Assembly: GCA_021772565.1 (NCBI GenBank)
Contig: JAJFLR010000107.1
Span: 1-64,000 of the forward strand
Source of the DNA: Opitutales bacterium
Lineage (GTDB): Bacteria > Verrucomicrobiota > Verrucomicrobiia > Opitutales > JAJFLR01
Direction of reading: 5' to 3'
Length of the DNA: 64,000 bases
Positions 5,723-15,156 of this stretch are shown piece after piece. Position numbers and translations under genes: made by a program. Position 1 is the first letter of the stretch, and each line of letters opens with the position of its first letter. The notes under the pieces are model-generated. The model was given only the letters and a program-made list of their open reading frames with translations, did not search any database and was not told the origin of the DNA.

Positions 5723-6904
5723 CTAAATTAATTCAGTCGCCTTTTTTCGAATCGTATCATCGAAATCGATAACTTCATCCAGGCTTTCTGCCTTTTTGTG
5801 CGGAAGAGCAGACATTGTTTTTTCGATTAATTTTGCAATTCCGGTAAAGGGGATCTGATGCTTTAAAAACGCGTCCACGGCGATTTCATTGGCGGCGTTA
5901 AAAATAGTCGACGCGGTACCGCCCGAAATAAGTGCTTCACGAGCTAATCTGAGACAGGGAAATTTATTTAAATCCGGGGGTAAAAATTCAAGATTAAACA
6001 TTTTTGTAAAATCGATCGGTTTATCGACGCCGGTAAATTTCTCAGGAAAAGTTAAAACATGCTGAATTGCAAAAGTCATCGATGGAGGTGAGAGTTGTGC
6101 GATTACCGATCCATCTTGCCATTCAACCATTGAGTGAACGATACTTTGAGGGTGCACAACGATTTCAATTTGATTGGAATGTGCGTTAAATAGCCAATGT
6201 GCTTCGATAAGTTCTAAGCCTTTGTTTGCCATTGTCGAGGAATCAACAGTAATTTTTGGCCCCATATCCCAATTCGGATGTTGAATCGCATCTTCCGGTT
6301 TAATTTTGGCCATTTGCTCGAGTGTAAAATTTCGAAATGCACCACCCGAGGCCGTGAGTATTATTTTAGAAAGGTCTTTGCTATTTCCAGATTGTAAGCA
6401 TTGAAAAATAGCGTTATGCTCACTGTCTATCGGCAATATGCTAACATTATTTTTGTGAGCAGCTGCCATGACAAATTTTCCTGCCATGACCAAAATTTCT
6501 TTACTGGCGAGGCCGATATCTTTGCGTGCTTCAATAGCCGCCATAACTGGTTTTAAACTTTTCGTACCGACAATCGCGGCGATAACCATTTTAACTTCTG
6601 CTAGTGTAGCTAATTCTGACAATCCATTTTCGCCACAATAAAGTTTTGTGTCACCGGAAAATAAATTACTTCTTTGTGCTTCAGCATATGCTTTTTGGTC
6701 ACCAATTGCGACATGCTTAACGTGAAATTTTTCTGCGATCGCCGCCAATTTTTTGTAACGCTTGCAACCGGCGATGGCGAATAATTCAAATTTATCAGGA
6801 TGCTTTTCAATAACGTGCTGAGTATTTTCTCCAATGGATCCGGATGCGCCGAGCAATGCTATTTTTTTTATCACGGGGTAATGGTTATTATAATTTAGCG
6901 GCAA
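5723..6904 (-). CDS. dxr: 1-deoxy-D-xylulose 5-phosphate reductoisomerase
   Basis: This enzyme of the MEP isoprenoid pathway rearranges and reduces DXP to MEP with NADPH. The 393 residues match family length. The N-terminal Rossmann motif LLGASGSIGENT (about residues 18-29) binds NADPH. The central catalytic segment has PIDSEHNAIFQCL, LTASGGAF and HPNWDMGPKITVDSSTMANKGLE. The C-terminal helical domain is complete. It feeds the polyprenyl diphosphate synthase encoded at 50.9 kb. No Shine-Dalgarno sequence is visible. Confidence 0.97.
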   Translation of the reverse strand: MPLNYNNHYPVIKKIALLGASGSIGENTQHVIEKHPDKFELFAIAGCKRYKKLAAIAEKFHVKHVAIGDQKAYAEAQRSNLFSGDTKLYCGENGLSELATLAEVKMVIAAIVGTKSLKPVMAAIEARKDIGLASKEILVMAGKFVMAAAHKNNVSILPIDSEHNAIFQCLQSGNSKDLSKIILTASGGAFRNFTLEQMAKIKPEDAIQHPNWDMGPKITVDSSTMANKGLELIEAHWLFNAHSNQIEIVVHPQSIVHSMVEWQDGSVIAQLSPPSMTFAIQHVLTFPEKFTGVDKPIDFTKMFNLEFLPPDLNKFPCLRLAREALISGGTASTIFNAANEIAVDAFLKHQIPFTGIAKLIEKTMSALPHKKAESLDEVIDFDDTIRKKATELI

Positions 6905-6921
6905 TATAACTTCTCAAACCT

Positions 6922-7104
6922 TTATTGGAAAACATTGTATGCTTTAAAAAAATCCAGTTGAACGAATTTATCAATATCATTATGGGGAGAAATCCAAATA
7001 AAAGGTTTCATCGTCTATTTTATAAAATGAAAGATCGAATCTGCCGTCAAACGTATATATGCTTGCGGCTCGCTGTTTTGTTCTGACCGTAGTCCTTCAT
7101 TAAA
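6922..7104 (-). pseudogene. Broken reading frame next to the RM operon
   Basis: On the reverse strand one frame reads as protein-like sequence for about 60 codons, interrupted only by an in-frame TAG near 7015-7017. Upstream of the stop it reads SEQNSEPQAYIRL followed by TADSIFHFIK. Downstream it reads MKPFIWISPHNDIDK and continues to a TAA at 6922-6924. Either the second half is a 29-residue ORF from an ATG at 7011, or the whole is a nonsense-mutated remnant. It sits exactly at the boundary between dxr and the restriction-modification operon. No family is recognised. Confidence 0.3.
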
Positions 7105-7113
7105 TTATTAATA

Positions 7114-7350
7114 TTATTTACTAAATAAATGATTTTGAACTTCAGATTCTATGCTAGACGGACGTTCCTCTTGCAGTGAGTCACAAATGCAACAATATTG
7201 CTGGGTTATGGGATAGATATAATTATTTTTACATTCACAGTCCCAATAGTCTAAATTTAAAGTTATGTTGCCAGCATACTGGAGGCGTTCATTACGTGCA
7301 TTAAATGTGTCATGCCAGCAGTTAATATCTTTATTCAAATTGATCCCCAT
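7114..7350 (-). CDS. Small Cys-rich protein, fourth gene of the RM operon
   Basis: The protein has 78 residues. Cysteines occur as WDCECKNN and QQYCCICDS, which could form a small zinc-binding knuckle of CxC...CCxC type. Its start lies 16 bp inside the end of the preceding nuclease gene, so it is translationally linked to the RM operon. No domain is recognised. Possible roles are a controller or specificity accessory of the nuclease, but nothing in the sequence shows DNA binding directly. Confidence 0.6.
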   Translation of the reverse strand: MGINLNKDINCWHDTFNARNERLQYAGNITLNLDYWDCECKNNYIYPITQQYCCICDSLQEERPSSIESEVQNHLFSK

Positions 7351-8108
7351 TTCAATGGTTTTGTATGATAGTTTACTTGTTTTGTATTTATTGTTTTCTC
7401 ATTAAAGTTTATTTTATACGTTGGATTGAAAATTACATTCATTTGAGGTACTTCACGCAAGTTGCTTATAACTATTAATGCATAATCATCCTTGTAAACC
7501 TTAGCCTTTCCAAATTCATTTTTTGTCATCCTGATACTACCATAGTCGGTACACAGACCTTTTATTTCTGCAAGAAAAAAATGTTTTTGAACCTCAATTT
7601 GGAAATCATATCCATCACCAAATAACCGTGCATCTTCTAAAATACCGTACTCAAAAGCTTCAACATTTGAAAAGTTATTCATAAAGTACAGTTCTGCTTC
7701 CTGTCCTGTTATCTGGAGTTGCTTAAATTTACTTTTTAATACTGGACTTATTTTTTCAGCTGACTCGCAAATAACAGAACATTTTTCTTCAAGATATAGT
7801 TTTACAATATTTGAATAAGCAACTGCATCAAGGGAACCAAAAAGGGAATCTATAAGAATCTTACGATGAATATAAGCATCACTCTTTTGCCACCACCCCT
7901 TTCTCTTATTATCAAAAAATGGATCAAATAAATCTTGTCTATTTTTTACTGTACCAATTGTCTCAGCAATCTTTATTTGAACTATATATTCATAAAAAGC
8001 AGTTTTGGTTTTAAAACCAAAACTGCTAACAAAGATTGTATCAAATTTAGCTAGACCGTATCCAATTAAATTGAGAATCTCATAGTTTTTGTGCTGTCCC
8101 TGATACAT
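7335..8108 (-). CDS. Putative type II restriction endonuclease, DUF3883/PD-(D/E)XK
   Basis: The protein has 257 residues. The C-terminal half matches the DUF3883 (NO VEIN C-terminal) nuclease-like domain. GQEAELYF (Glu138) is followed by GDGYDFQIE (Asp168) and FLAEIKG (Glu181, Lys183), giving the D...ExK arrangement of PD-(D/E)XK nucleases. The N-terminal half (residues 1-130, with a Trp-rich region around residue 72) is probably the DNA-recognition part. It lies 8 bp after the methyltransferase gene, in a Vsr-Dcm-nuclease order that strongly suggests the cutting partner. The ATG lies in the 3' arm of a hairpin. Sequence specificity is unknown. Confidence 0.75.
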   Translation of the reverse strand: MYQGQHKNYEILNLIGYGLAKFDTIFVSSFGFKTKTAFYEYIVQIKIAETIGTVKNRQDLFDPFFDNKRKGWWQKSDAYIHRKILIDSLFGSLDAVAYSNIVKLYLEEKCSVICESAEKISPVLKSKFKQLQITGQEAELYFMNNFSNVEAFEYGILEDARLFGDGYDFQIEVQKHFFLAEIKGLCTDYGSIRMTKNEFGKAKVYKDDYALIVISNLREVPQMNVIFNPTYKINFNEKTINTKQVNYHTKPLKWGSI

Positions 8109-8137
8109 TTGAAAGATTAAGCAGCCTTTACAAATGT
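8105..8137 (-). promoter_or_regulatory. Hairpin spanning methyltransferase stop and nuclease start
   Basis: On the mRNA strand ACATTTG and CAAATGT (outer arms, 7 bp) and AAAG/CTTT (inner arms, 4 bp) pair with a one-base bulge and a 10-nt loop. The TAA that ends the methyltransferase gene lies in the loop and the ATG of the nuclease lies in the 3' arm. A ribosome finishing the methyltransferase would open the stem, so nuclease translation may depend on methyltransferase translation. This regulation is inferred from position only. Confidence 0.5.
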
Positions 8138-9091
8138 CTGCAACCTCGCTCTTTCTCTGTTTGTAAGCGCACGATTTTCTTTCCAGTGATACATATGAGT
8201 TCCGCCTCCACCACTTCCGGTAAGAGTGTATGCAGGTTTTTCCGGATCGAGCCGTTTATATATTTGACTAATTCTAGCACCGCGAATATTTAGCCTTAAG
8301 TGATCTGGAATACCAGCTGTAAAAGCGTTTTCTCCAGGTTTTATGTATTTCAAACGTTCTATTACTGCCTTGGATTGCTTAGTTAGTTCATTATTTTTAT
8401 GGGTTTCTTTAATTGGAGGAATTTCAATGGCATTTTTACATGAGACATTTATGTCATTAAAAGGATTCGAAGATGGGACTTTAAAATTTATAGAAAAATC
8501 CTTTTTAATGCCTATTATTATAATTCGCTGTCGTGCTTGAGGGACTCCATATTTATTAAATTTATAAAGGTGAGGATAAACAGAGTATCCTGCATCATAG
8601 AATTCTTGAAGAATGATATTAAAGGTTTTTCCTTCATTTGAGTTTTTTAAACCCCCAACATTTTCAGCAAGAAACCAATTCGGCTTAAAATATTTTAAAG
8701 CTTTAACTCCGTAAGAATATAGAGGCCCGTAATTGCCATTAATTCCTTTTTGCTCACCAACAACACTAAAATCATTACATGGAAAACCAAACGCCAAAGC
8801 ATCAATTTTAGATATTTTTTCTAATCTTTTAAAATCAAGTTTTCTTATATCTTCGCATACTACAGATTCTGGGTTATGAGGACATATATTACTACGGTAT
8901 GTATCACAGGTATCAGTGTCATAATCTGTTGCCCATGCATGTTTTATTTTATATATTTTATTTTCAGTTTCGATTTGAGCATATTTTGCTCCTAATGCTA
9001 TTCCGCCCGGTCCAGAAAACAATTCTCCCAATCTAAACTCAACTATTTCCTTTTTTTTCATGTTTTTACTAATAAAGTTACTATTTTTCAT
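8117..9091 (-). CDS. DNA cytosine-5 methyltransferase, C-terminally truncated
   Basis: This AdoMet-dependent C5-cytosine methyltransferase should protect host DNA from the partner nuclease. Motif I is ELFSGPGGIALG (residues 23-34). Motif IV is FPCNDFS with catalytic Cys105. Motif VI is ENV (143-145) and motif VIII is QARQR (185-189). The motif IX region with RALTNRERARLQTF ends at 320. Only four residues (VKAA) follow, so the usual 'PDDF...IGNAVPP' motif X, which completes the AdoMet domain, is missing. The downstream frame does not supply it. The gene overlaps vsr by 11 bp. Activity is doubtful unless motif X comes from elsewhere. Confidence 0.88.
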   Translation of the reverse strand: MKNSNFISKNMKKKEIVEFRLGELFSGPGGIALGAKYAQIETENKIYKIKHAWATDYDTDTCDTYRSNICPHNPESVVCEDIRKLDFKRLEKISKIDALAFGFPCNDFSVVGEQKGINGNYGPLYSYGVKALKYFKPNWFLAENVGGLKNSNEGKTFNIILQEFYDAGYSVYPHLYKFNKYGVPQARQRIIIIGIKKDFSINFKVPSSNPFNDINVSCKNAIEIPPIKETHKNNELTKQSKAVIERLKYIKPGENAFTAGIPDHLRLNIRGARISQIYKRLDPEKPAYTLTGSGGGGTHMYHWKENRALTNRERARLQTFVKAA

Positions 9092-9599
9092 TGGCCATCA
9101 AATACTTACTTCTTTTCTCAGCAACTTTTATTATTTTTACTTTACTTATGTCATCATCATAACAGTAACCATTAGGAACATCTAATACTTTTAAAACCTT
9201 GTTAATAACTTCACATGGATTTCTTAATATATCACATTCCCATAAAACAATAATTTTCCAATTTAATTTTTCGAGAGATTTTTTCACATATTTATCACGT
9301 TCTTTGTTTTTTCTAAATTTGTCATGCCAATATATTTCATTAGTTTTTGGGAAAGTGGCTTTTTTGCAATTTTCATGTCTATGCCAAAAACATCCATGAA
9401 CTAGAATTATGGTTTGGTATTTTGAAATTACAATATCTGGGTTTCCAGGTAACTTATTGGCATTTATCCGAAACCGTATCCCTTTTCTGTGCAATAAAGA
9501 CCTTATTATAACTTCTGGTTTGGAGTGCTTATTTTTAATCATGCTCATATTCCATGATCTTTTTTCTCTGCTCAAATGATCTACCATATATTTTCTCAC
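9081..9599 (-). CDS. vsr: Very short patch repair endonuclease
   Basis: Vsr nicks next to T:G mismatches formed by deamination of 5-methylcytosine and so normally accompanies a Dcm-type methyltransferase, as here. The protein has 172 residues. Family motifs are SKPEVIIRSLLHRKGIRFR, LPGNPDIV (Asp55, metal ligand), LVHGCFWHRHENC (His73 and zinc-site residues) and WKIIVLWECDIL. It is first in the operon and overlaps the methyltransferase by 11 bp. Met5 (MVDHLSREKRS) is an alternative start closer to the family's usual N-terminus. Confidence 0.95.
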   Translation of the reverse strand: MRKYMVDHLSREKRSWNMSMIKNKHSKPEVIIRSLLHRKGIRFRINANKLPGNPDIVISKYQTIILVHGCFWHRHENCKKATFPKTNEIYWHDKFRKNKERDKYVKKSLEKLNWKIIVLWECDILRNPCEVINKVLKVLDVPNGYCYDDDISKVKIIKVAEKRSKYLMANEK

Positions 9600-9648
9600 A
9601 AATTGAACCTCAAAACCAGAGGGTTAATGGAACTTCAAACTAATACAT

Positions 9649-10020
9649 TTATATTTTATATGGGACTCTTATATCAACATTTTCTTTTTTAAAATCTTTA
9701 GTATTTCGAGTAACGAGTATGCTTCCTTCTTCTTTTGCAGTTGCATAAATGATTGCATCGGGGATTTTCATTTTAGTTTTTTTTCGAATAGTTACTGCTT
9801 GTTCAGCAATCTGATTGGATAAGCTAATAATATTAAATAAAGCCAAAAAAGAGCGAACTGCTTTTTCTTCATCATCAGATTTAACTCCAGCTAACACTTC
9901 AATCATAGATATAATACTGAGCAATTTTTCATCAAATCTGTCTATTTCTATTTTGGCTTTTTTAATACCATTCAGGTAATCGATTAATATATTTGTATCA
10001 AAAAGTGCTTTCATTACCAT
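9649..10020 (-). CDS. PIN-domain ribonuclease toxin (VapC-like)
   Basis: The protein has 123 residues with the PIN fold of VapC toxins, which cleave specific RNAs in a Mg-dependent way. Acidic residues are visible in LFDTNILIDYL near the N-terminus, MIEVLAG, and KIPDAIIYATA, followed by LVTRNTKDF. The first 7 bp overlap the antitoxin gene, typical of co-translated toxin-antitoxin pairs. Met3 (MKALFDTN) is the more usual N-terminus. It lies just downstream of the Hsp70-like gene and upstream of the RM operon, within the defence island. Confidence 0.88.
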   Translation of the reverse strand: MVMKALFDTNILIDYLNGIKKAKIEIDRFDEKLLSIISMIEVLAGVKSDDEEKAVRSFLALFNIISLSNQIAEQAVTIRKKTKMKIPDAIIYATAKEEGSILVTRNTKDFKKENVDIRVPYKI

Positions 10021-10229
10021 TCACTTCTTATTTTGGATTGATATTCCAACCCGTCAACTTTTCGATTTTTCCAAATGCCAAATGCTGCTTTTGCAGAGTT
10101 TTGATTTTTATTAGCCAGATATTCAGATAGTGCAGATCTGATTACTGATGCTTTTGATCGTTTTTCCTGTTTAGCTACGGCATCAACATTATTCGCAATT
10201 TCTTGTGGTATATCAATAATTGTTCTCAT
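10014..10229 (-). CDS. Ribbon-helix-helix antitoxin (VapB-like)
   Basis: The protein has 71 residues. The N-terminal half, beginning MRTIIDIPQEIANNVDAVAK, is a ribbon-helix-helix DNA-binding domain. The remainder (ending YQSKIRSEW) would wrap the PIN toxin. Antitoxins of this type bind and neutralise the toxin and repress the shared promoter. Paired GATATCAT repeats directly upstream fit such autoregulation. Confidence 0.86.
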   Translation of the reverse strand: MRTIIDIPQEIANNVDAVAKQEKRSKASVIRSALSEYLANKNQNSAKAAFGIWKNRKVDGLEYQSKIRSEW

Positions 10230-10232
10230 AAA

Positions 10233-10255
10233 ATGATATCATGTATCGATATCAT
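10233..10255 (-). promoter_or_regulatory. Operator of the RHH/PIN toxin-antitoxin operon
   Basis: Two copies of GATATCAT, at 10235-10242 and 10248-10255, are spaced 13 bp apart. The first lies within the palindrome ATGATATCAT. The pair starts 4 bp upstream of the antitoxin ATG. Tandem short repeats are the usual target of ribbon-helix-helix dimers. The element overlaps the last codons of the upstream Hsp70-like gene. Confidence 0.55.
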
Positions 10256-11724
10256 ATACAGTCAACACTTATTAATAGAATTTCAACAATATTGTCATCT
10301 TCATGAAAACTAACATTATCGCCAATTCTTAATACTGTAGGTTGATGACAAATACTTCCATTTATTTTAATTTCGATTTGAGAATCAGGAATTAATTCTA
10401 TAGTACCAGCATTAATATTTATTTCACTAGTTTTGCAAAAATTCAAATCAGGAACCAAATGACTAACGCTCACTTTATTAGACTGCTTTTCACTTGAAAG
10501 AACAGTTAATGAATAAGCTCGACCTTCGTATACTAGATGAGTTGGCAGGTTTGAATCCGTTGTTGGGATATCCTCAGTGGCATTTGAATCTTCATTCAAT
10601 TGCTTTATACCATCGTTTGAAAAATTGATAGCGGTGATAATAGGTGTCTCTTCTATATCACTGACTAAATCTTTATCAATCCCATATCTGGCTGCACCCT
10701 TAGCGGCAGCTCCTTCCGGTAAAATTCTTACTTCTAAATTTGAATTCTTAGAGATTGCTTCATCTAACCCGACTAAGCGATTTGCTCTTTCTGAAAGCAG
10801 AATCAAACAATTTTTATACGATAAACTTTCTTCAGTTAATAACTTATTAATTTTATCTGTAATCCGATTACACGTTTGCTCTAAATAATTTAAAATAAAA
10901 TCACGGCGAATTGTTGTTCTCCAGGATCTGGACTTACCAACTATTTCGAGGTCTCTCTCATGCACTGTATTTATATTTTTTAGCAGTTTGACAATTTGAT
11001 TATAAAATTCCTGTTCGGTATTTCTATTATGGGTGACGTCAAAAGTAGTCTGACTTAGAAAATGATTGGAGAGCCAAGCAAGCAGATCATCAAGTATCTG
11101 TGAAAAACCAAAATTGCGAATAGATGTGGATTTAACAACTTTAATTTGATTTGCTGAATTCAATAACGTTACCTCAGTAGCATTCTGATGAATATCAACA
11201 TATAGTATCGCGCGATTTTTTATTTCAAAAAATTGATCAGCGCCCAGTAATGATGCACAAGAAATATCAACAATACCTGTCAGCGGTATATCCAAATCAT
11301 TAGCAATACCAAGCAGAATACCAATCCTCTCTTCATTGCTTCGCTCATCGGACAAGAAACTACTTTGAAGTGCAATCGTTACTTTATCGATCGGTAATTT
11401 ATCTATTGTTAACTTTTGGCAAACAAATTTTAAATAATGAAACGCGAGTTCAGAAAAGCGGGGGGTATTTCCAGAAACTGAAATTTCGGAATGCTGTAGA
11501 GACAAATTATCCAAAAAAGAATCACTGATTAAGCGAGGGTGAGTACGCCGATGTTTTTCTGCTAACCGGCCACTAATAAATTCCCGTCCATCGTGATAGA
11601 CTATTCCCGGACATGTAGTATGTCCATCATCTAAACTGAGCAGGCTTTCCAGATTATCACTTTTGGCAACCGCTAAAAATTCAGTGCTGCTTATTTCAAG
11701 TCCAATTGTTCTCATCTTTTTCAA
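10252..11724 (-). CDS. Divergent Hsp70/actin-like ATPase-fold protein
   Basis: The protein has 490 residues and no membrane spans. The first ~350 residues resemble an Hsp70 nucleotide-binding domain: phosphate-1 region RTIGLEISSTEFLAVA (5-20), phosphate-2-like AILYVDIHQNATEVTLL (from residue 172) and the late signature LPEGAAAKGAARYG (335-348). Glycines of both phosphate loops are lost, so ATP hydrolysis is uncertain. There is no Hsp70 substrate-binding domain. Instead a small C-terminal beta-rich region (about 395-490) contains IKINGSICHQPTVLRIGDNV. The gene lies 31 bp after an ExbB/MotA-like channel gene on the same strand and is probably co-transcribed with it. Function is unknown. Confidence 0.72.
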   Translation of the reverse strand: MKKMRTIGLEISSTEFLAVAKSDNLESLLSLDDGHTTCPGIVYHDGREFISGRLAEKHRRTHPRLISDSFLDNLSLQHSEISVSGNTPRFSELAFHYLKFVCQKLTIDKLPIDKVTIALQSSFLSDERSNEERIGILLGIANDLDIPLTGIVDISCASLLGADQFFEIKNRAILYVDIHQNATEVTLLNSANQIKVVKSTSIRNFGFSQILDDLLAWLSNHFLSQTTFDVTHNRNTEQEFYNQIVKLLKNINTVHERDLEIVGKSRSWRTTIRRDFILNYLEQTCNRITDKINKLLTEESLSYKNCLILLSERANRLVGLDEAISKNSNLEVRILPEGAAAKGAARYGIDKDLVSDIEETPIITAINFSNDGIKQLNEDSNATEDIPTTDSNLPTHLVYEGRAYSLTVLSSEKQSNKVSVSHLVPDLNFCKTSEININAGTIELIPDSQIEIKINGSICHQPTVLRIGDNVSFHEDDNIVEILLISVDCI

Positions 11725-11755
11725 ACAGATTTCTTAAATAATTTTTAATCTGCTA

Positions 11756-12580
11756 TTATACTATTTTGGGAATTTTCATTATTGAAATGAGTTTTTCACG
11801 ACAATAATTTTCGATATCATAAATTAGCTGATCTTGCTGTGATTGAAGTAAGTGAATGATATACATTAAAATTATACTTAAAAACAAAGCAATAAGTGTA
11901 GAATTAAATGCCAGTCCAAGTGAAGCTGTAACACCTGAAATATCACCTTTTATGGCTTGATCGGCTTTCATTAAAGCTTCACCGATACCGCGAACCGTGC
12001 CAACAAATCCAACAGATGGAATTGCCCAGGCAATATATCGAACCAGTGACAAATCTGAGTCGAGTTGATCAGCTGCACTGTCTGTTAAATCTTTGATTGA
12101 TTGTGATACATCCTGAATAGAACTGGTAGAATGAAAGCGCAGTAGAGCTTGAGACAAAGTTTTTGGAAGCATCATATCTACTAACGTTGGGTTATTTTCT
12201 AATTTTGTTTCAATATGTTTTCGATAAACCAATGCATCTTCCGGCAAAATTCGCTCGCCCTCTTCCAAGTCCAAAAAACTGAAATCAATGAGATTTTTTT
12301 CATGATAAAGATTTCTCAGTTTATAGAAGATAATAAATGTCGCCCAAATTAAAAGTGTAAAACAAATCTGTTGTTCGTAATTGTGCAAAATAACGTATAT
12401 ATTTCTCCTGGGGGCATACCCTGAATCACTTTGCTTGGCCGCCATGACACGCTCCTCAAAAAGAGCGTGTTCAGCTTTGGGTCTTATGATTGTACTATAA
12501 ATAATACCGACGACAAAAAATGAAATAAACAGCCCGAACATTTGTAATATATTATCTTTGGAGAAAAATCCTTTGTGCAT
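11756..12580 (-). CDS. MotA/TolQ/ExbB-type proton channel protein
   Basis: The protein has 274 residues with spans near 11-33, 68-88, 182-200 and 219-243. The last two carry the family signature SVGFVGTVRGIGEAL (189-203) and GVTASLGLAFNSTLIAL (216-232). MotA/ExbB proteins form pentameric channels that use proton flow to drive a partner. The usual ExbD/TolR/MotB partner with its essential Asp is absent. An Hsp70-like protein follows instead. A GC-rich 8-bp hairpin lies in the coding region at 12447-12470. It is not adjacent to Tol-Pal or TonB genes, which argues against ordinary ExbB/TolQ. Confidence 0.85.
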   Translation of the reverse strand: MHKGFFSKDNILQMFGLFISFFVVGIIYSTIIRPKAEHALFEERVMAAKQSDSGYAPRRNIYVILHNYEQQICFTLLIWATFIIFYKLRNLYHEKNLIDFSFLDLEEGERILPEDALVYRKHIETKLENNPTLVDMMLPKTLSQALLRFHSTSSIQDVSQSIKDLTDSAADQLDSDLSLVRYIAWAIPSVGFVGTVRGIGEALMKADQAIKGDISGVTASLGLAFNSTLIALFLSIILMYIIHLLQSQQDQLIYDIENYCREKLISIMKIPKIV

Positions 12581-12781: not shown

Positions 12782-13702
12782 ATGTTTAAATTTATCAGCA
12801 GTCGAGTTTTGCAGACTATCCCGGTTTTATTCATCATAGCGACAATGACTTTTTTTATGGTTCGGGCAGCACCCGGAGGACCCTTTAGTCAGGAAAAAAA
12901 GATTTCTCCGTTAATAAAAGAAAAAATGAACGAACATTACGGGTTGAATGATCAGTTGCATGTTCAATATTTTAATTACTTAAAAAATCTAACGCATTTA
13001 GATTTGGGCCCCTCTTTCAAACACGAAGGAAGAACGGTAAACGAGTTAATTAAAGATTCATTTCCGGTTTCTATGGAGCTTGGGTTATATGGGCTTTTAA
13101 TTGCATTGGTCATTGGAATTTCTGCAGGGTTAATAGCATCCGTTAAAAAAAATTCATTTTTTGATTACACACCCATGTCGATTGCCATGATCGGTATCTG
13201 TTTACCGACATTTGTAATGGGGCCAATATTAGCGTTAGTTTTTGGACTACACTTAAGGTGGTTTAATGTTTCCGGGTGGTTTACAATGGCAGATCGAGTA
13301 TTGCCGGCAATGACATTGGGATTATATTATGCTGCTTACATTGCCCGACTTACTCGCGGTGGGATGTTAGAAGTTTTATCTCAGGATTTCATACGTACGG
13401 CACGTGCAAAAGGTGTCCCCGAACATATAATACTTTTCAAACATTGCCTAAAAGGCGGATTGCTACCGGTAATTTCTTTTTTAGGGCCCGCATTTGCAGG
13501 ATTAATTAGTGGTTCATTTGTAGTCGAAACTATATTTCAAATTCCGGGACTGGGCAGACATTTCATTAACGCAGCATTTAACCGAGATTATACAATGGTG
13601 CTAGGAACCGTTTTGTTTTATGCCACTTTAATTATATTGATGAATTTGATTGTTGATATTATTCAAGTATTACTTAATCCGAAATTAAAATTTGAGAGTT
13701 AA
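12782..13702 (+). CDS. Peptide/nickel-type ABC transporter permease (OppB/DppB)
   Basis: This inner-membrane permease of binding-protein-dependent transport has 306 residues and six spans. It shows the N-terminal signature FKFISSRVLQTIPVLFIIATMTFF and the EAA loop with FIRTARAKGVPE (about 203-214), which docks the ATPase. It is complete at the C-terminus (IIQVLLNPKLKFES). OppB normally pairs with OppC, two ATPases and a binding protein, but none is present: a dinJ-yafQ module lies immediately downstream in the opposite direction, overlapping the stop by 4 bp. The transporter may be split, or the gene may be a stranded remnant. Confidence 0.93.
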   Translation: MFKFISSRVLQTIPVLFIIATMTFFMVRAAPGGPFSQEKKISPLIKEKMNEHYGLNDQLHVQYFNYLKNLTHLDLGPSFKHEGRTVNELIKDSFPVSMELGLYGLLIALVIGISAGLIASVKKNSFFDYTPMSIAMIGICLPTFVMGPILALVFGLHLRWFNVSGWFTMADRVLPAMTLGLYYAAYIARLTRGGMLEVLSQDFIRTARAKGVPEHIILFKHCLKGGLLPVISFLGPAFAGLISGSFVVETIFQIPGLGRHFINAAFNRDYTMVLGTVLFYATLIILMNLIVDIIQVLLNPKLKFES

Positions 13703-13962
13703 AACAAATCACTATGGCTTCCGGTTCGCTCAAGAAGTAATTCCTTTTTGCTGATTTTATAAATTAAAATCCAATCTGGTTCTATATGGCAATCTCTTCT
13801 CCCTAACCAATTTCCTTTTAATGGATGATCTTTATATTTTATTGGGAGTGTTAATTCACTCATCAATAATTCAATAACTATAGTTAGTTTACTTTGATTC
13901 TTCCCTCTTTTAATTTGATTTTTGATATCTCTTTTAAACTGAGAAGTTTGAGAAAGTTTCAT
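13699..13962 (-). CDS. yafQ: mRNA interferase toxin, YafQ family (RelE superfamily)
   Basis: YafQ toxins cleave mRNA on the ribosome. The protein has 87 residues, with YKDHPLKGNWLGRRDCHIEP in the middle, then DWILIYK, and a C-terminal LERTGSHSDLF. These give the His and Asp residues characteristic of YafQ. The gene overlaps the antitoxin by 4 bp (ATGA), which indicates translational coupling. Its 3' end overlaps the oppB stop by 4 bp. Confidence 0.93.
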   Translation of the reverse strand: MKLSQTSQFKRDIKNQIKRGKNQSKLTIVIELLMSELTLPIKYKDHPLKGNWLGRRDCHIEPDWILIYKISKKELLLERTGSHSDLF

Positions 13963-14222
13963 TCTTCATTCCAGCTTTTGACCATATCTTTAAGATTTTC
14001 AAATGATTCTATTTCTTCCCGTCGATCACTTTTTTCGAGTGTTTTGGCAGTCGCTGCATTTGGAACTCGAAGTTCAACCGGAAATTCCTTTCTTAGTGCA
14101 ATCTGCTTGTAAAGTAAGCGAACTGCATCAGTCGGGGTCATTCCGATTTTAGTTAAAATATTTTCCGTTTCTTTTTTTGTTTTTAAGTCGATTCTAGCGT
14201 GCACTGTTGCTGTTTGATTCAT
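13959..14222 (-). CDS. dinJ: DinJ/RelB-type antitoxin
   Basis: The protein has 87 residues from the ATG at 14222. The frame is open further upstream, but this start matches the family (MNQTATVHARIDLKTKKE, then a ribbon-helix-helix domain with GMTPTDAVRLLYKQIALRKEFPVEL). It neutralises the YafQ toxin and should repress its own promoter. A TTGACA element and a 7-bp inverted repeat lie immediately upstream. The spacing suggests transcription starts at or next to the ATG. Confidence 0.9.
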   Translation of the reverse strand: MNQTATVHARIDLKTKKETENILTKIGMTPTDAVRLLYKQIALRKEFPVELRVPNAATAKTLEKSDRREEIESFENLKDMVKSWNEE

Positions 14223-14229
14223 ATAGAAA

Positions 14230-14257
14230 AATGTAGCACGTTTGCTACATGTGTCAA
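14230..14257 (-). promoter_or_regulatory. dinJ-yafQ promoter with operator
   Basis: On the reverse strand TTGACA (14257-14252) and TACATT (14235-14230) are separated by 16 bp. Between and over them lies the inverted repeat ATGTAGC (14231-14237) / GCTACAT (14244-14250) with a 6-bp spacer. The predicted transcription start falls about 7 bp beyond the -10 element, that is at the antitoxin ATG at 14222, so the message may be leaderless. Confidence 0.55.
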
Positions 14258-14283
14258 TCAATAAATCCCGAAGTTCAGCTTGT

Positions 14284-15156
14284 TCAAAAAAACTTAAATT
14301 TATCAGGTGAAATTTCTGATGGGATATTCCCAAGTTGCGTGATATTAAAAACGCTTTCTGACAAATCTAAATTTACGGCAGCAGCGACAATTTTCAAACG
14401 AGTCTTGTTTCTTGTTTTTTCATCTAACAAGTCAATTGTTTTAACGATCCATTCTTTGTTAACTTTTTTAACACTATTAATTTTAAAGGTTTTAATTAGT
14501 TCGCCATCAGGTGAAATTATTTCTGCTTTTAGCATCGCACTAAACTCTGCATCAAGTGTGACTCGGACTCCACCAATATCAGGATACTGTTCACTGAAAT
14601 CTTCAGGCGGGTATAGAAGCAGTTGATGAGCCGATCTGCCTTTCATTCGTGTTGAGCCTTCGTAGACATGATCCTGCCAATAAATAAAAGGCATTTGAAT
14701 ATCAAATGGTGTAAATATTAAATTTTCGTACAACGGTTCAAACAAATTTTCGCCATCAATTTTTACAGTTTTTGATTTTTCTCCAGCTCGATTTATCCAT
14801 AGAGTTGCCTCGACACCATTTTGAGAAAGCATATCGACTTGTCCTATTTCTTTATTATTTGATTTTTGTCGTGGCCATAATCGAACTCTGTTCAAAGGGC
14901 CTTTTTCATTCCACGAACCCCAAATTTGGCCAAGATAAATTGATTCTTTGCCTCTGCGAGGCAAATGTTTCATTTCAAAACGAAATGCAAAATCATTGGT
15001 TAATTTGGCACTTCGAAAAAAATCCATGATTTGATCGACTCTCTCCGGGCTGATTTCTTTGTTATTTATATATTCAGGCTGAGCTCTAACATTTTTTTTT
15101 GCTGATAAACAAACTGCTAGTGAGAGAAAAATAAATAATGCGATAAAAGCTTTCAT
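14284..15156 (-). CDS. LolA-like outer-membrane lipoprotein-sorting protein
   Basis: The protein has 290 residues. It begins with a signal peptide (MKAFIALFIFLSLAVCLSA; the Cys could alternatively place it as a lipoprotein) followed by a soluble periplasmic domain. Segments such as IYLGQIWGSWNEKG, RVRLWPR and STRMKGRSAHQLLLYP resemble the LolA-like beta half-barrel of 'outer membrane lipoprotein-sorting' proteins, which carry hydrophobic ligands between membranes. It follows secG on the same strand with a gap of about 47 bp, so co-transcription is likely. Assignment is by overall fold features rather than a decisive motif. Confidence 0.6.
   Translation of the reverse strand: MKAFIALFIFLSLAVCLSAKKNVRAQPEYINNKEISPERVDQIMDFFRSAKLTNDFAFRFEMKHLPRRGKESIYLGQIWGSWNEKGPLNRVRLWPRQKSNNKEIGQVDMLSQNGVEATLWINRAGEKSKTVKIDGENLFEPLYENLIFTPFDIQMPFIYWQDHVYEGSTRMKGRSAHQLLLYPPEDFSEQYPDIGGVRVTLDAEFSAMLKAEIISPDGELIKTFKINSVKKVNKEWIVKTIDLLDEKTRNKTRLKIVAAAVNLDLSESVFNITQLGNIPSEISPDKFKFF

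Follow-up and report, generated by a model that had tools for sequence, protein, structure and literature searches.

The window analysed here is a 64,000-nucleotide stretch from an Opitutales bacterium (contig JAJFLR010000107.1), and it carries a gene pair encoding a TolQ/ExbB/MotA-like channel subunit and an Hsp70-fold protein. The pair probably makes up that half of a proton-driven envelope motor which lies in the membrane and the cytoplasm; less certainly, the Hsp70-like protein would be a pseudo-ATPase regulator docked on it. Motors of the TolQ/ExbB/MotA kind power flagella, gliding, nutrient import and outer-membrane upkeep. The features of the pair are:

11756 to 12580, minus strand: TolQ/ExbB/MotA-like channel subunit, 274 aa, PF01618
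11810 to 12160, minus strand: MotA/ExbB domain of the channel, residues 141–257, with the ring threonines T195 (11996–11998) and T228 (11897–11899)
10252 to 11724, minus strand: Hsp70-fold protein with FHA-like tail, 490 aa from a TTG start or 487 aa from the probable ATG at 11715
10600 to 11715, minus strand: Hsp70-nucleotide-binding-domain-like region, residues 4–375, with degenerate nucleotide loops
10255 to 10545, minus strand: C-terminal FHA-like tail, residues 394–490, degenerate here and aligned with the FHA domains of relatives

The channel matches PF01618 with an E-value of 3.5e-14 and 53.1 bits, which passes the curated cut-off of 22.9, and its best match among solved structures is TolQ (E 0.003). 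It shares 38–60% identity with the operon channels of relatives, the nearest relative being at 60%, and T195 and T228 are kept in 10/10 aligned channels. The sequence-only reading, which had described a MotA/ExbB-type channel with an intact signature, is borne out by these results. It had also placed the Hsp70-like gene 31 bp from the channel. The coordinates and strand are right, but the gap is rather about 40 bp when the ATG start is used. The Hsp70-like gene probably starts at this ATG (11715) and not at the TTG at 11724, because its relatives begin at 'MRT'.

The Hsp70-like protein of the window has no Pfam match, neither to PF00012 nor to PF00498. Its AlphaFold2 model (mean pLDDT 90.5, pTM 0.80) was matched by Foldseek to the nucleotide-binding domains of DnaK with target TM scores of about 0.78–0.81 and E-values of about 1e-18, and a profile of 51 Hsp-like relatives matches DnaK/Hsp70 chains with E-values down to 1.9e-10. 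The GTTN, E171 (catalytic Glu), GGGT and GG-TR (adenosine motif) positions of DnaK are replaced in nearly all of the 51 relatives, and in the second phosphate loop, at the DLGGGT position, the Asp is mostly kept. Judged from these alignments, the degenerate loops are a family trait and not decay within the window genome. The protein appears unable to use ATP, and weak nucleotide binding may be possible. No transmembrane helix was predicted for it. The substrate-binding domain is absent, and an FHA-like tail follows the nucleotide-binding domain. Both the degraded phosphate loops and the lack of a substrate-binding domain had been noticed from the window, and the comparison with DnaK across relatives confirms them.

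The tail of about 95 residues aligns with the FHA domains of relatives, which match PF00498 in loci L093 (E 1.5e-10) and L113 (E 1.2e-12); the tail in locus L013 scores barely over the gathering threshold. The window tail itself has neither the S-x-x-H nor the GTFV phosphothreonine-binding motif and no Pfam FHA match. Intact FHA motifs are limited to Desulfobacterota and some Gammaproteobacteria, where many loci have them, and the motifs are degenerate in every Opitutales examined. In the Desulfobacterota and Gammaproteobacteria, a lipoprotein-like gene and a gene for a large PEGA/FGE membrane protein lie upstream of the operon, joined in several loci by a Ser/Thr kinase gene; in L093 (3571–6012, plus strand), PEGA repeats and an FGE-sulfatase (formylglycine-generating-enzyme-like) domain are found in one protein. 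This arrangement suggests that the Hsp-like protein reads a phospho-signal in these two groups. The state of the FHA domain matches the presence of the kinase imperfectly, and some Gammaproteobacteria have the upstream kinase without the FHA motif.

In relatives among the Opitutales, the pair is followed by two further genes of about 355 aa and 335 aa, here called vWA1 and vWA2. Each encodes, in this order, a single hydrophobic helix at the N-terminus (of the form SFLDCICCGFGAVILLFVL), a coiled coil and a vWA domain. An Asp in the helix is invariant; it is D17 in vWA1 and D22 in vWA2, and it is kept in 9/9 and 37/37 rows of the vWA1 alignments and in 9/9 rows of the vWA2 alignment. The metal site is degenerate in vWA1 (SGGM) and intact in vWA2 (DTSGSM), and in the AlphaFold2 model of vWA1 a single helix (residues 11–124) precedes the vWA fold. 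The Asp-bearing helix of vWA1 and vWA2 is a transmembrane helix of the MotB/ExbD type, and on this ground we assign the two proteins as the stator partners of the channel.

An alignment of vWA2 was used to search genome contigs, and at least 537 relatives were confirmed, from which 80 loci were kept for gene-order counts. A scan of genome contigs with the single Hsp70-like sequence gave no match, but the vWA2 alignment did find relatives. The genes for channel, Hsp70-like protein, vWA1 and vWA2 stand in this order on one strand in 54/80 loci. The channel, vWA1 and vWA2 occur together in 66/80, the Hsp gene alone being absent from 12/80, and the other 14/80 loci lack other parts, many of them lying at contig ends. 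By record title, the taxa are Opitutales, other Verrucomicrobia, Kiritimatiellia, Phycisphaerales, Desulfobacterota/Deltaproteobacteria, and Gamma- and Betaproteobacteria. Of 388 genomes in the phylum, 23 have vWA2 and 14 give a strong Hsp match, and each of these 14 also belongs to the 23 (hypergeometric p 5e-20, uncorrected for relatedness). The channel and the Hsp70-like gene are thus neighbours in unrelated genomes of several phyla, and the conserved third gene that the sequence-only reading had proposed to look for was found, together with a fourth, as vWA1 and vWA2 downstream of the pair.

The channel, vWA1 and vWA2 persist in one clade of Opitutales, and in a few others, that lack the Hsp-like gene, so the Hsp-like subunit is dispensable. 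In a locus from a clade lacking this gene (L031), the genes just upstream of channel-vWA1-vWA2 encode a barrel resembling TonB-dependent receptors (6887–8737, plus strand) and a glycine-zipper protein (8823–9431, minus strand). In loci L034–L039 the channel is more distant, and the next two genes encode other coiled-coil proteins with a membrane anchor and no recognisable vWA domain; these loci may represent additional kinds of motor with paired stators.

The retention of the motor without the Hsp70-like gene in 12 loci bears on a different role for this protein, namely that of an active ATP-driven actuator or a chaperone that assembles or powers the channel. Such a role would fit the Hsp70 nucleotide-binding fold and the fact that most members retain the Asp of the DLGGGT position. 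We consider it unlikely, as GTTN, the catalytic Glu and the glycine-rich phosphate and adenosine loops are replaced family-wide and the protein has no substrate-binding domain. The idea of a channel driven or gated by an actin-fold protein is affected in the same way: its 'driven' part is unlikely given the family-wide degeneration of the ATP-binding loops; gating or regulation may apply.

The sequence-only reading had regarded the ExbD/TolR/MotB-type stator partner as missing. Profile searches located intact vWA1 and vWA2 genes in the same genome, on contig C13 (62354–64404). Most Opitutales loci have divergent glycine-zipper and DUF4136-like lipoprotein genes upstream of the channel, and in the window genome these two are found together on contig C17; a DUF4136-like lipoprotein is also found in genomes without the motor. 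Since the stators are intact on C13 and the lipoproteins are on C17, the locus of the window genome is scattered over contigs and not missing. Misbinning of these contigs was considered, and the composition of C13 and C17 agrees with that of the window (tetranucleotide r 0.99). Because of this shared composition, the window contig, C13 and C17 plausibly belong to one genome. A second Opitutales genome (G054) is split at another joint, with the channel alone and Hsp-vWA1-vWA2 elsewhere (loci L030/L150 on G054:C173 and L016 on G054:C110).

A split operon could also mean that the pair is a decaying remnant in the window genome and that motor function has been lost. The Hsp-like protein is indeed diverged, with 33–37% identity to its nearest relatives, and its FHA tail is degenerate. 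However, all six open reading frames are free of stops, the conserved Thr and Asp are in place, the channel is still 60% identical to that of the nearest relative, the contigs share their composition, and a split that leaves the channel apart from the other three genes is known in G054. Loss of function is very unlikely on this evidence.

The surroundings of the window pair had led to the proposal of a defence system. Beside the pair, at 7335–10229 on the minus strand, are genes for a NOV_C-domain protein, a C5 cytosine methylase, a Vsr endonuclease, a PIN toxin (VapC) and a small ribbon-helix-helix antitoxin; the GC content of this cassette is 31%, compared with 34% for the window. Genes for a YafQ-type toxin and a RelB-type antitoxin lie at 13699–14333 on the minus strand. 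The position between toxin-antitoxin and restriction genes therefore holds for the window copy, but not elsewhere as far as the relatives read show. The flanks of relatives are ordinary genes, which we take to include those for IMP dehydrogenase, orotate phosphoribosyltransferase, pyruvate kinase and sulfate adenylyltransferase.

Under a Zorya-like reading, the pair would protect against phages, and the Hsp70-like protein would be its effector or sensor in the cytoplasm. The adjoining VapBC and restriction-modification genes and a weak match of the channel to ZorA models (PADLOC E 3e-6) are in its favour. Against NCBIfam ZorA_4, the channel scores 16.6 bits where the curated cut-off is 500. 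The long cytoplasmic tail of ZorA is required for defence and ZorB has a peptidoglycan-binding domain (PMC11890865), but the window channel has 274 aa in all, without a tail of this type, and the stator heads are vWA domains. In the operons that were read, none of the partners ZorC/D, ZorE and ZorF/G was recognised. When vWA2 was searched in 72,556 plasmid records, 50,697 phage records and viral contigs, 0 matches were obtained. PADLOC at 1e-10 gave few matches among 89 flanking proteins; in the 25 families listed of 37, the top count was three (mad3) and the rest were one each, and many of the matches are variants of one PD-T4-6/kinase-like model. The family sits among housekeeping genes in relatives, a context set beforehand as counting against a defence role. 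Gene context, domains and absence from mobile elements led us to reject the defence system, and the Zorya-like reading is very improbable.

The envelope motor that we favour can be outlined as follows; the structure models are of single chains, and the assembly is taken from homologous motors. Five channel subunits would surround a vWA1/vWA2 heterodimer (5:2), and proton flow would rotate this pair, which would reach into the periplasm. The vWA heads would then move or pull periplasmic or outer-membrane partners, which in Opitutales are probably the glycine-zipper and DUF4136-like lipoproteins beside the operon. Less certainly, the Hsp70-like protein would dock from the cytoplasm on the inner side of the motor and regulate it without hydrolysing ATP. 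Threonines phosphorylated by the kinase of the same operon may be recognised by the FHA domain of this protein in Desulfobacterota and some Gammaproteobacteria, and in Opitutales this kinase-FHA link may have decayed, with the Hsp70-like protein remaining as a scaffold. We tentatively raise a further possibility, that the dead Hsp70-fold protein is a phospho-responsive cytoplasmic clutch of a rotary motor, in which a kinase signal received through the FHA domain decides whether the motor runs. If true, this would be a previously undescribed mode of regulation for the TolQ/ExbB/MotA motor superfamily.

A motor that joins two distinct vWA heads with a conserved Hsp70-like subunit occurs in several phyla, including the culturable Pelagicoccus. 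Its operon offers a small testable set, consisting of a channel, a pseudo-Hsp70, two stators, a kinase and lipoproteins. The window also provides a lesson, as the reading of a single window makes a motor seem incomplete when its other half lies elsewhere in the genome.

Part of this motor has been predicted before. TolQ homologues with two transpore-helix vWA proteins were predicted as a new force-transducing motor in PMC12204202 (Mol Biol Evol 2025, Fig. 4c,d), where vWA pairs are independently predicted as the dimeric axle of TolQ-like motors. As described there, a TolQ homologue stands beside a non-identical, membrane-tethered vWA pair with a proton-binding Asp and without tolR/exbD, in Proteobacteria and Verrucomicrobia. 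The window motor belongs to this TolQ/vWA-pair kind; the three genes stand together in 66/80 loci, and in the window genome both vWA genes are on another contig. The main text of PMC12204202 makes no mention of Hsp70, DnaK, chaperone, kinase, FHA domain, PEGA-FGE gene or split operon. GTPase/Hsp70 conflict systems were also considered and set aside, as the main text of PMC7159879 names no TolQ, MotA or ExbB. A literature search, with most subscription papers and all preprints outside its coverage, gave no description of the four-gene set, nor of the Hsp70-like subunit, its FHA tail or the upstream kinase and PEGA-FGE genes. The suggestion of an undescribed system thus holds in that the system is distinct, but its channel and vWA-pair motor had already been predicted.

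Like the window motor, Zorya (ZorAB) has a non-flagellar MotA-like channel with dedicated partners. It differs in its long channel tail, peptidoglycan-binding stator head, nuclease/helicase effectors and mobile or defence context, none of which was recognised for the window motor. The Hsp70-like protein shares the nucleotide-binding-domain fold of DnaK/Hsp70, whereas its family has degenerate loops and an FHA or FHA-like tail in place of the substrate-binding domain. The 5:2 motors TolQR, ExbBD and MotAB have the channel domain, the ring Thr and the stator Asp on a single N-terminal helix in common with the window motor, which adds two different vWA stator heads and an Hsp70-like cytoplasmic protein.
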